From NCBI GenBank assembly GCA_020152595.1, contig JAIGNY010000126.1, positions 186,001 to 250,000 of the forward strand: 64,000 nucleotides of DNA, given 5' to 3'. The notes under the pieces are model-generated. The model had not been told where the DNA came from and did not search any database. It saw only the letters and a program-made list of their open reading frames with translations. This DNA is from Chiridota heheva (taxonomy: Eukaryota; Echinodermata; Holothuroidea; Apodida; Chiridotidae). The first letter of the stretch is position 1; each line of letters begins with the position of its first letter. A program made the translations under genes and the position numbers. Of the stretch, positions 32,221 through 63,855 are shown piece by piece.

Positions 32221-32649
32221 AAACAGAGCCTTTAACTTGAATATCTCCTTAACCGAATAAGATATTGAAGTAGTTTTTTCACCATTTTGTTTCTCTTTAC
32301 TTCCTCTTTCATGTAAAATAAACTTGCTTGACAACTGAACTAATCCTTTAAAGTCCGGTCTATATACACACAGTAAAAGTGTATGGGAAGTATGGTGCAT
32401 TATGGGAACATGCATCAAATTAAATGAATTCAAATTTAAAATCTTTAATTTTAAAAAAGTGAGCCCTTCGAATTACTCTCTGACTGTTTCTCTGCCTCTA
32501 CCTGCCCACAAAAAAACAAGTATTGATTAAAGATCTATGGACAGGTGTCATATAACAACAACATCAAGCATGAAAATAACCAAAAAAAGTAACATATTCG
32601 GTTAAAAAAGCAACCATTTTACTGCTGCATTTTGAATTTTCAGGCCTTA

Positions 32650-33066
32650 TTATGATAAGTTCTCTTATCCGGCTGCCCTCCCCCCCCCCTCCCTCCCCCT
32701 GCTTCACTTGCAACATCGATCTCTCTATCAAGCATATATTTTTAACCTGTCCTCTCTACCAGAACTCCAGATCTCTTCTCTCCTCACTCTCCTCAATATC
32801 CGACCGATTAGAAGACAATTCTTCCTCAAACATCATCAACTTCTTCCGCAACAACAACCTCTTCCACCACATATAATCTCCTCCCCTTCTACACCTAACC
32901 TTATACACCACTTTCTTTTCACTTAATTTTTTCTCCCATATTCAGCTTTTCCCCTTTATCTTCCTTACATCTCCTCACTTTACACCATTATTTATTTACA
33001 CCCTCTTGGCGCATTTGACTCTGACTGTCGCGGTGCCGTTAAACATCAACAAACCAAACCAAACCT
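32650..33066 (+). mobile_element. LINE 3' end inserted in the left arm
   Basis: An end of ORF2 with a CxxC...H...CP-type motif (CFTCNIDLSIKHIFLTCPLY) runs to a stop at 32,876, followed by a C/T-rich 3' part and the tail GCGGTGCCGTTAAACATC with AACCAAACC. The flanks CCTTATTATGATAA and CCTTATAATAAATT look like a diverged target-site duplication. The right arm has only one such sequence, CCTTATTATGATCAATT (reversed at 63,549-63,565), that is, the empty site. Confidence 0.85.
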
Positions 33067-33397
33067 TATAATAAATTATGCAAATCGATAGAAATTGAGA
33101 CATACTATCAAGTTAACCTATTGTTTTTTAATCCTCTAACAACGTTTTAAATCTCCATCATACCTTTATTAAAATTTAGCAGGAGAAAATAGTCTTGATT
33201 TTCAGTGACTGACATTTTGGAGAGAAAGCATAACTTTAAAGATATTCAGCATTCTTATATACATCAAAATTTTGCATATATTTTAATTATATTTTATTTT
33301 TGCATATATCTTAATTAGCCATGTATCGGAAACTACGGGTGCTTTTGACATAATCAAAAGACATTCTGTTCAGCATTTAAGGATCTTTGTGCTACCT

Positions 33398-33651
33398 ACT
33401 GTGGTGTAGCGGTTATCATACCTGTCTACAGACCACGAGGCCCCGGGTTCAAGCCTGGGGTGGGTAGACACGCCAGTGCACCACAACTGGTTATCAAAGG
33501 CCGTGGACATTGACTTGGTTGTCGATGTTATGTCTGTCCGTACGTCGTACCTGTGTTCTCGTCCGGGTCGTATTAAGCGTTTCGTGATAGCATTTGTACT
33601 ATCATAACCGAATACGCAGGCGACGACCCCGTCATTGTAATTGTGTGTTCA
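33398..33651 (+). mobile_element. tRNA-Val-like SINE, copy 2
   Basis: The 254-bp element has the same A box (GTGGTGTAGCGGTTATCAT), B box (GGGTTCAAGCC) and body as the copy at 19,432. It is absent from the matching place in the right arm (about 62,300), so it entered the left arm after the arms separated or was lost on the right. Confidence 0.85.
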
Positions 33652-33999
33652 ACTGTCAACTCTCTCTCTCTCAATACAACATCTCTATCTGTTCATATAC
33701 ACCATCTAAATCAGGTATTTGTTCTTTAAGACATCATGCTAAGATCCGACATGCTATTAATCATAGTTTTTATCATTAGTATTTTTGCTGTTGAAAATCT
33801 TCGTAGGTTCTTTAATATGGAATGTAGAATGCAGTGACATGTCGGTATCAGGTCATAGATGGTGGGATGGCATGTGGATCACAGGTGGGGTGGCATGCGG
33901 ATCATAGGTGGGATGGCATGTGTATATCATAGGTGGAGTGGCATGTGGATCATAGGTGGAATGGCATATGGGACGTAGCTGAGATGGCATGTGGGTAAT

Positions 34000-60524: not shown

Positions 60525-62439
60525 CACCCCCCCCCCCCACCTTCTTCCCTCCCCCTACCATCGACGCTGCCACAACACGTCACCCATATCATCGCACCCT
60601 AAGCCCAATACGTCACTAAAACCTATGTACCATTTAACATCCGACCCTTGAGTCTGTTCCATATACCATACAATATTATGCCTCATATACCCTCCCATCC
60701 ACATCTTATTTGCCATTTCACCCATGACTAATATTACAACCCACCCTCTGTATTATGCATGTACGCAATCATATCCACCATACAACACATGTTATCCCAC
60801 TGTGTCCCCTATGTTCCACGTGCCATCCCACCCTATGTCCCACGTTTTGTCGCATATGTGAATGCTAAACCCACTATCCCATGCATATCACCTTATTCCA
60901 TATGCAGACCAATTCACATATAATATTTTCAAGCTATTTCGTATACGCAATCTCACCCTTATGCAATACCTTTCACCCATATGTTCAAAACACTATGCCA
61001 CCCCTACGTCTCACATTCCATTGCACCCTATGCCACATAAGTCATTTCAACTCTTCCAACTCTTTATCTCATCTTATGCCCATATACTATCCAATGTTAT
61101 GCTCCCACGCAACCCATCCTTTATTCGTATGTCACCATACCCTCTATACACATGCCACCCTATCCCACATCCAAACTCTAACTCTTTTCTTATACGCATT
61201 TCCACCTTTGTCCAGTAGGTTCCATTCCACCCTTTGTCTCGCATGCCATCCAACCCTATGCCCCTAATGACAAACTACCATATGTCCCGTATGACAACAC
61301 ACCCTATGTCCCATATGCCATTTCACCATATGTCCCATCCCTAACCATGTCCCACATGACGACCCACGCTATGTCGCATACGTGTACGCCAAACCCAGTA
61401 CCATGTACATGTCACCCTGCTCCATTTTACATTCCACCCTGGGTCCAATGTGACATTTCACCCTTTGTCCCATATGGCATTCCACCTATATGTCCCATAT
61501 GATATTTCACCCTATGTCGTATTTTTAATTCCATCTTCTTTATCCAATATTTTTCATCGTAGCAAACGACCCACATGCTCCATGTGACATTTTAACTTAT
61601 GTACCATATGCCATCCATGTCGCACACGCACTATCCCGTTTATGTCACCCCATGTCTGTTATGCCAACCCACCTCATGTTCCATATGATATCCCACTCTT
61701 TCTCTTTTAAACAATCCCATCCTCTATCCAATATCTACCATATATGCACAACATACCATCGTGCCAGGCATTTTCAGCTATGAACCATATGCCATCCATC
61801 TCACCTTGTGCCTCATATGTTATTCCATACTATGCGCCGTAAGCCATACCACTTTTGTCTTACACACCACCCTAAAACTTATACGACAGCCAACACGTTC
61901 GCTATTACACCCACTATTCCATCCCACACTGTCCCACGTTATACTCCACCATATTTCGTATGCGCAATCCAACCCTCTACCCATTATCATGCCACCCCAC
62001 CTATGATCCACATGCCACCCAACAGTATGGTCCACATGTCATCCCACCTATGACTTACATGCCACCCAACATAATGATCCTCATGTCATCCCACCTATGA
62101 CCCACATGCCACCCAACAGTATGATCCACATGTCATCCCAACTATGACCCACATGCCACCCAACATTATGATCCACGTGTCATCCTACCTATGACTCACA
62201 TACACATTTTGAATAATGTCGGGGATCTACATTTTAACATGATGTGTTATAGAACAAATACCTTATTTAACTGTAAATGGACAGATAGAGATGTTATATT
62301 CACCACAAAGCTCCTTAAATATTGAAGAGAACAGTGGCGTAGGAACCGGGACCAGTGAGATAAATCCCACCCCTCCCCCCTTCCTTCAAAAGATAAAGGT
62401 CTAACGAATTGATTTTGAAGAATCAGATTCAGATTCCAT

Positions 62440-62975
62440 GGCATTTTCTTCAATCTTAAATTTTCGAGAGGCCTACTTTAAATTTTTTCAATTTTCCAAA
62501 CGTTTTCTTCATTTTCGGGAATTTATTTTCAATTTTCGGAAAATTTCCTTCAATGTTCCTGAAATTTCCTTCATTTTCAAGATATCTTCTTCATTTGGGG
62601 AAATTTGCCTAAATTTTCGTGAAATTTGCTTAAATTTTCGTGAAATTTGCTTAAATTTTTCGGAAAAATCTTCTTCATGTTCGGGGAAATTATCTTCGCA
62701 TTTTCGGAAAATATCCTTCATTCTCAGGAATTTTTCATCATCGCTCCCAATTTTCATGAAAATTTTATCAACTTATTTATACGTGAAATGTCCTTCATTT
62801 TTTATAATTTTTTCTTCATGTTTGGGAATTTTGCATCAATTCTGGTGCTTGAATTTTCGTGAAATTTCCTTCATTTTCGGGAAATTTGTCTTCCTGTTTG
62901 GGAAATTTTCATAATTTTCGTAGAATTTCCTTCATTTTCGTGAAATTTCCTTCATTTTCTGGAAATTTTACCAAA
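62440..62975. repeat. Degenerate AAATTTCCTTCATTTTCGGG minisatellite, right arm only
   Basis: Units of about 20-30 bp with TTTTCGTGAAATTTCCTTCA recur about 18 times. It is the reverse-orientation relative of the array at 14,350-14,625. The corresponding place in the left arm holds the SINE and about 100 bp of other sequence. Confidence 0.85.
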
Positions 62976-63165
62976 ATTTCCGATCATTCCCCCTTCCCCC
63001 TTTTTTACAAATAGTGATAAGAGATCATCCGGCGTACATTTTTGTAGGTCTGTTGGGACAAAAATCAATTCCCTTCTCCCCCTTCCTTGAATTTCAAAAG
63101 CTCCCATACGAAATAGTTTCCAAAGGTTTTGAAATGTGCCTAATTAAAATACATGCAAGGTTTTG

Positions 63166-63350
63166 ATATATATATATATATATATATATATATATATATA
63201 TATATATATATATATATATATATATATATATATATATATATATATATATATATATATATATATATATATATATATATATATATATATATATATATATATA
63301 TATATATATATATATATATATATATATATATATATATATATATTTATATA
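63166..63350. repeat. (AT)n tract, about 180 bp, right arm only
   Basis: Pure TA dinucleotide. Its flanks (CATGCAAGGTTTTGATATAT, TATTTATATACAAAAAACAC) match left-arm 33,250-33,290, which has only TTATATACATCAAAATTTTG without expansion. Confidence 0.97.
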
Positions 63351-63855
63351 CAAAAAACACTTTATATACACTATCTCTTTTAAGTTATGCTTTCTTTCTT
63401 AAATGTCAGTCACTGAAAATCAAGACTTTTTTCTCCTGCTAAATTTGAATAAGGGGGGTATAATGGAGATTCAAAACGTTGTTGGAGGATTAGAAAACAA
63501 TAAGTTAACTTGTTACTGTCTCAATTTGTATAAACATTTGCGTAATTGATCATAATAAGGCCTGCAAATTTAACATGCAGCAGTAAAATGGTCGCTTTTT
63601 TAACCGAATATGTTACTTTTTGTTGTTGTTGCTATTTTCATGGTTGATGTTGTTGAAATATGACACTGTCCCTAGATCTTAAATTAATACTTGTTTTTTG
63701 TAGGCAGGTAGAAGCCTACCCAAACAGTCGGGGAGTAATTCGAAGGGCTCACATCTTTAAAATTAAAGATTTTTAAATTTGATTTTCATTCAATTTGATG
63801 CATGTTCTCAGAATGCACCTTACTTCTCATATACTTTTACTGTGCCATATAGACG

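Follow-up and report, generated by a model that had tools for sequence, protein, structure and literature searches.

The 64,000-bp stretch of the Chiridota heheva genome analyzed here, referred to as the window (contig JAIGNY010000126.1, C129, positions 186,001–250,000; assembly of 1.1 Gb in 3,744 contigs), contains two inverted arms, A and B, that enclose a 22-kb GC-rich satellite core. The A-core-B unit recurs across the genome with fixed polarity, its ends adjoin (TG)n tracts, every locus read has a core of its own, and at some loci both arms are of the A type. We consider it probable that the window carries a copy of a giant, foldback-like element that is dispersed and non-autonomous and whose axis breeds satellites; its mode of movement and the growth at the axis are what we infer.

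When the window was compared with itself, the arms matched in inverted, collinear order in five main pieces outside the tandem arrays (32358–32656 vs. 63854–63549, 86% identity; 33066–33245 vs. 63555–63373, 85%; 34911–35670 vs. 61998–61240, 77%; 36546–36859 vs. 61122–60840, 73%; and 36937–37254 vs. 60839–60557, 76%). An earlier note on this sequence had described inverted arms that are collinear in their non-tandem parts as well, with ∼22 kb of GC-rich satellite between them. Both observations hold, and positions 37,842–59,999 are made up of tandem repeats. The inverted homology at 32.4–37.3 and 60.5–63.9 kb also stands, but not these bounds, because the arms are much longer (16,089 to ∼71,106). 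The A-B homology itself extends over ∼13 kb (24.4–37.3 kb in the window), with the outermost A-B match found at 24,357. Identities from BLAST count gaps and those in the tree matrix described below do not (window A vs. B, 76.6 vs. 86.2%). The arms consist of the following features (strand given where assigned):

16089–16835, plus strand: outermost piece of arm A; its outer end adjoins a (CT)n/(CA)3 tract (39 other places compared)
16836–23651: 6.8-kb transposon inside arm A and unrelated to the arm; its ends are inverted repeats of 40 bp, flanked by the 7-bp target duplication GTGAAAT (16829–16835 and 23652–23658)
23659–37841, plus strand: main body of arm A, minisatellite-rich, with no gene recognized; pieces are ∼80–95% identical to arms at C91, C2067, C1689, C2342, C2899, and C58
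33392–33672: 281-bp insert in arm A, absent from the six other loci compared
35740–36521: (TA)n tract in arm A, from the tandem-repeat listing
60000–64000, minus strand: inner part of arm B, which goes on beyond the window to contig position 257,106 (window 71,106)

The match to the outermost piece of arm A starts at query position 140 (window 16,089) in 30 of 39 scored places, and at positions 136–146 in 36 of 39, the window being excluded. Position 16,089 is the point where the window departs from the family, not the end of every copy, and the shared start is due in part to the window's own flank being unique. On the other side, the window departs from the C91 copy at 71,106, and no more B sequence was found past this point in the contig, checked to 82 kb; arm B of the window thus appears to be cut short there. 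A third copy of the outer arm, reported at 15.7 kb, was not recovered, the sole match there being 82 bp long (15882–15960, 79% identity). A stronger match of 264 bp (19426–19687 vs. 33392–33651, 91%) corresponds to the short insert in arm A. At the other six loci the alignment jumps from 33391 to 33673–33679 within a few bases. Tandem repeats at 27636–28218 and 28900–30520 (48-bp unit; ∼162-bp unit) are common to other A arms.

Dispersal and polarity of the A-core-B unit

A 501-bp probe from the left arm matched 40 scored places with 92–100% identity, several of which are inverted pairs. Each DNA search of the genome scored about the 40 best candidates, and the counts derived from them are counts of best places. 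Five of the loci read in detail (C2342, C1689, C2899, C2067, and C58) were chosen because they appeared as pairs with this first probe, and C91 was one of the top-ranked matches; the unbiased counts are those of the genome-wide scans for marks and pairs.

Marker patterns scanned over the whole genome yielded 77 A marks (≤2 mismatches) and 57 B marks (≤3 mismatches), with none for the reversed controls. Among the 42 neighboring pairs of marks within 40 kb, 36 were convergent (29 A-B and 7 A-A), 6 were in tandem, and none was divergent. A-B marks were 2.2–22.9 kb apart, with a median of 7.4 kb; of the 29 spacings, that of the window is the largest. Full copies were delimited at C91 (∼858.6–892.3 kb, 34 kb), C1961 (∼537.3–572.2 kb, 35 kb), and C1350 (∼136.0–177.4 kb, 41 kb); the window unit measures 55 kb, including the inserted transposon and the truncated arm B.

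The search of the assembly for other loci with the same arms, which the earlier note had proposed, thus returned 36 convergent pairs. Of the three readings offered there, the best fit is a satellite-carrying composite element of very large size, since arms and core are dispersed together. A misassembled inversion, which had been named as the outcome that would undo the structure, is unlikely because the structure recurs across the genome. The cores seem hard to assemble: among the 17 minus-strand A marks that lack a partner, five are no more than 11 kb from where a contig begins. Array lengths depend on the assembly and may therefore be wrong. One misjoin, however, cannot account for 36 pairs with the same arrangement and polarity on many contigs, with differing cores in those read, and we regard an artefact, be it a misjoined inversion or a wrongly sized satellite, as very improbable overall.

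The third reading, a structural locus such as a knob, which can be widened to an inverted-repeat centromere or another heterochromatic landmark, draws on the likeness to the centromeres of Candida tropicalis, in which, in the excerpted account, inverted arms that are alike within a locus surround a distinct core (PMC4741521). The A marks, however, occupy 70 places (77 marks with seven A-A pairs), and two units ∼0.4–1.6 Mb apart are present on each of C91, C2342, and C2067. The core here is a satellite, unlike the non-repetitive mid core in Candida tropicalis (PMC4741521). A knob or centromere found no positive support, and a structural role is in our view most unlikely.

Satellite cores and arm relationships

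The core of the window comprises these arrays, all from the tandem-repeat listing:

37842–38127, plus strand: two arrays that border arm A on its inner side, one of 13-bp units of the CTTGAGGTTGCGA type and a related one of 39-bp units
38128–42854: 15-bp satellite CCGCTCCGAGACTGG, ∼329 copies
43052–56680: 19-bp satellite CCGACCGACCAGGCAGGGT, 716 copies with 98% matches; locus-private center, from the 12-mer comparison as well
56691–59999: 20/37-bp and 15-bp arrays
59162–59999: AGCCACACGACTTAA array at the B-side edge, also present at C91

Arrays of the 13-bp CTTGAGGTTGCGA kind recur at the other loci read, and the central units, as found with TRF, differ among the seven loci. None of the six other cores contained more than 1% of the 12-mer occurrences of the window core. 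In the reverse direction, 1–8% of the 12-mers of the other cores were present in the window core, and 21% for C91. Among the other six loci, core sharing was mostly 0–0.14, with 0.28 for C2899 in C2342 and up to 0.44 for the small C91 core, which is mostly the common 13-bp array. The arms of the same seven loci shared 0.34–0.71 of their 12-mers. Opposite-strand sharing within the core was strong at three A-A loci (0.72–0.83), and weak at C2342 (0.22 vs. 0.14 on the same strand), while the window, C91, and C58 showed little or none.

The GC content was 0.70–0.80 across 38–58 kb of the window, in 2-kb steps. The observed/expected CpG ratio was 0.95–1.20 in the cores and 0.67–0.87 in the arms, compared with 0.38 in two flanking stretches pooled. 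The 22-kb core of the window (37842–59999), at 0.95 vs. 0.38 in the flanks, resembles a giant CpG island. Multi-kilobase cores with undepleted CpG stand next to CpG-poor flanks.

In a tree built from one 760-bp arm stretch, with weakly supported deeper branches (0.08–0.83), the B arms of three loci grouped together with support of 1.000. Since they do so, the A and B types were separate before the copies spread, and arm B is an old inverted relative of arm A. The layout of the window on its own permits a single inverted duplication, confined to this locus, in which a growing satellite was trapped, as the earlier note had suggested. Many other A-core-B copies exist, however, and the A/B divergence is older than the copies, which leaves this explanation hardly credible.

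In the same tree, the two arms were sisters in five of the five loci with two A-type arms (local support 0.95–1.00). The right arm of C1689 is A-type out to 59,934 (A position 24,264) and B-type from 59,968 outward, which places the junction ∼100 bp further out than the last A-B match found. At C2342, the A-A pair has a B outer end on its outer side (1,975,488–1,976,378), and a B mark stands beside the A-A pair at C2067 and C74. Judged from the sequence of these junctions, it appears that one arm was converted by the other within the unit, or that a foldback duplication took place.

These data suggest that (i) the unit could spread as a non-autonomous mobile element, in the manner of a foldback transposon; and (ii) its core, placed at the axis of inverted arms, would be exposed to hairpins, break repair, and replication slippage that amplify short GC-rich units, so that each copy would breed its own satellite. 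Pairing of the arms would let one overwrite the other, leading to arm homogenization. A stronger claim, of which we are doubtful, is that these giant palindromes represent a new class of selfish DNA, each copy of which invents and homogenizes its own GC- and CpG-rich satellite at the axis, while the arms overwrite each other and the whole spreads via (TG)n without a conventional transposase.

Unit ends, adjoining modules and coding content

At the outer end of arm A, (CA)≥4 was present within 44 bp in 18 of 19 cases and (TG)4 in none of the 19; the window, with (CT)n and (CA)3, is the exception. The background for such tracts, on either strand, was 12 of 1979 44-bp windows. All six B ends with readable letters adjoin (TG)n. 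At C91 and C1350, arm B terminates outward at (TG)n, and comparison of the two sequences beyond it gave no match; with arm B placed on the left, each of these two units has (TG)n of the same strand at both ends. At the eight A ends that lack the extension described below (7 of the 18 fetched and the window), the flanks are mutually unrelated and do not match the extension either.

Several observations weigh against a mobile element with its satellite growing at the axis. Without a convergent partner within 40 kb are 34 of the 77 A marks and 28 of the 57 B marks; some of these lie near contig starts, and the rest may have a diverged partner or none. A further extension of ∼2.9 kb past (CA)n was observed in 11 of the 18 A ends fetched, and 13 of its 40 scored places are more than 30 kb from any listed A arm, so that the end of the unit is ambiguous. 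A shared repeat, R, lies outward of (TG)n at four of the five B ends fetched. Comparison of the outer A with the outer B yielded scattered similarities of 24–203 bp and no inverted repeats at the extreme ends, a target-site duplication is indistinguishable from the (TG)n in which both ends lie, and empty sites were not encountered. The 19 frames scanned against Pfam contained no recognizable transposase; the genome was not searched for one. The idea that arrays as a rule become more homogeneous toward the axis was considered and rejected, as this trend is present in the window and in none of the other loci read; with no steady rise in those loci, growth at the axis is not established.

The main rival builds on the same ends. 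Here, (TG)n-bounded modules (A-core-B, the A extension, and R) would be shuffled by break repair, unequal exchange or circular DNA, with no transposition system of their own. Several modules do end at (TG)n on the same strand, inverted ends were not found, and no transposase was recognized in the frames examined. The extension closes with another (TG)n in C1350 and C1961, and may be an independent (TG)n-ended repeat because 13 of its 40 scored places lack a nearby A arm. R, noted at C91 near 892.4–892.65 kb, is dispersed, ends in (TG)n, and gave 545 first-look candidates; it lies directly next to many B ends, and at 11 of its 40 scored places a B outer end is 8–43 bp away. In the same orientation it also occurs close to where the A extension ends; this applies to C2627 and C3496 and, judged by eye, to C91, and module order thus varies. 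Shuffling, however, is not free: the A-core-B order is kept in 29 pairs with no divergent one, and 26 of the 27 extension places with an A arm within 30 kb have it on the expected side and strand (the remaining one, C91:62,611, is reversed). We hold shuffling of modules to be unlikely. A circularly permuted unit, suggested by R on either side, is not favored: among the best 40 scored places, 27 have a nearby A arm, and in 26 of these the extension lies on the side of A.

No gene was recognized in the unit, either among the 19 frames compared with Pfam, not all of which come from the arms, or among the remaining frames, which were inspected by eye; a coding element was therefore rejected, nothing having been recognized in the arms. 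If the unit moves as a foldback-like element, it would then be moved in trans by some enzyme, or would travel as a DNA circle and reinsert into (TG)n tracts. The only significant Pfam domain was RVT_1, in a non-LTR (long terminal repeat) piece at C2067 near 443.4–443.9 kb.

Other repeats surround or interrupt the window unit. RVT_1 was also detected, below the Pfam cut-off, at 2623–3012 of the window, and fragments of a non-LTR reverse transcriptase with an 18-bp minisatellite occupy 2442–5109. Related repeat copies are present at 3.7, 5.2, 8.3, and 13.6 kb, and (TTAGGG)n arrays exist in the assembly (31 + 139 overlapping matches), which speaks against most arthropods as the source; a search for COX1 gave no match. 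The 6.8-kb transposon within arm A looks young because its 40 scored places are 96–100% identical over 21000–22500. The 39 others are not near a listed A or B mark, and C2067 has the same arm site without the transposon. Its minus-strand frame at 19968–20219 has a weak Pfam match to TNP-like_RNaseH_C (E 0.0011, 19.3 bits, below the 24-bit cut-off), and the tail of this frame presumably resembles P-superfamily transposases.

Comparison with known systems

The birth of new satellites is an open question. The same arms with different satellites at the same relative position provide a natural replicate series for satellite origin, growth (spacing 2–23 kb), and turnover, and would allow testing whether hairpin-prone axes drive satellite birth. 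In the literature searched, with most subscription papers outside the search, we recognized no description of this layout. The sea-urchin TU elements have long inverted repeats with tandem subrepeats, and the Arabidopsis FARE elements are unusually large foldbacks. Neither is known to have a locus-private satellite core.

Inverted-repeat centromeres, in the excerpted account, share the look of the unit (PMC4741521) but not the number per chromosome, and the one-per-chromosome arrangement does not apply here. MuTAnT of Medicago, as far as the excerpts of its description go, is closer in that its copies are bounded by a presumed target microsatellite (PMC4486113), as are 18 of 19 A ends and 6 of 6 readable B ends here. 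MuTAnT, however, is Mutator-like, with a transposase and a (TA)n target (PMC4486113), whereas the present units measure tens of kilobases and adjoin (TG)n of fixed strand, and no transposase was recognized in them. The excerpted account of Galileo of Drosophila describes long inverted ends that are internally repetitive and variable in length, as here. They measure ∼1.26 kb at most, however, and Galileo has target duplications of 7 bp and a known transposase of the P type (PMC3573991), none of which was shown in our unit.

The nearest likeness in function is to Tetris, a foldback transposon of Drosophila virilis that, by the excerpted account, seeded a satellite (PMC4079207). It has long inverted repeats with internal tandem repeats and a variable non-coding middle, its tandem repeats grew into a satellite, and the excerpts likewise report no autonomous copy (PMC4079207). 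Its inverted repeats reach 1,735 bp with 8–10-bp target duplications (PMC4079207), in contrast to an A-B homology of ∼13 kb here; in our unit the satellite lies between the arms and differs by locus read, and the inverted repeats stop short of the unit's ends, which are embedded in (TG)n. The inverted arms are thus several times longer than in Tetris and Galileo, to the extent that these are covered in the excerpts (PMC4079207; PMC3573991). Like foldback elements, our unit has a variable middle that is enclosed by long inverted repeats, which themselves contain tandem repeats. Terminal inverted repeats, as expected of foldback and MuTAnT elements alike, were not found between outer A and outer B. 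Because of this and of the length of the arms, we do not class the unit as a member of the foldback group, yet it would work like a satellite-seeding foldback element.

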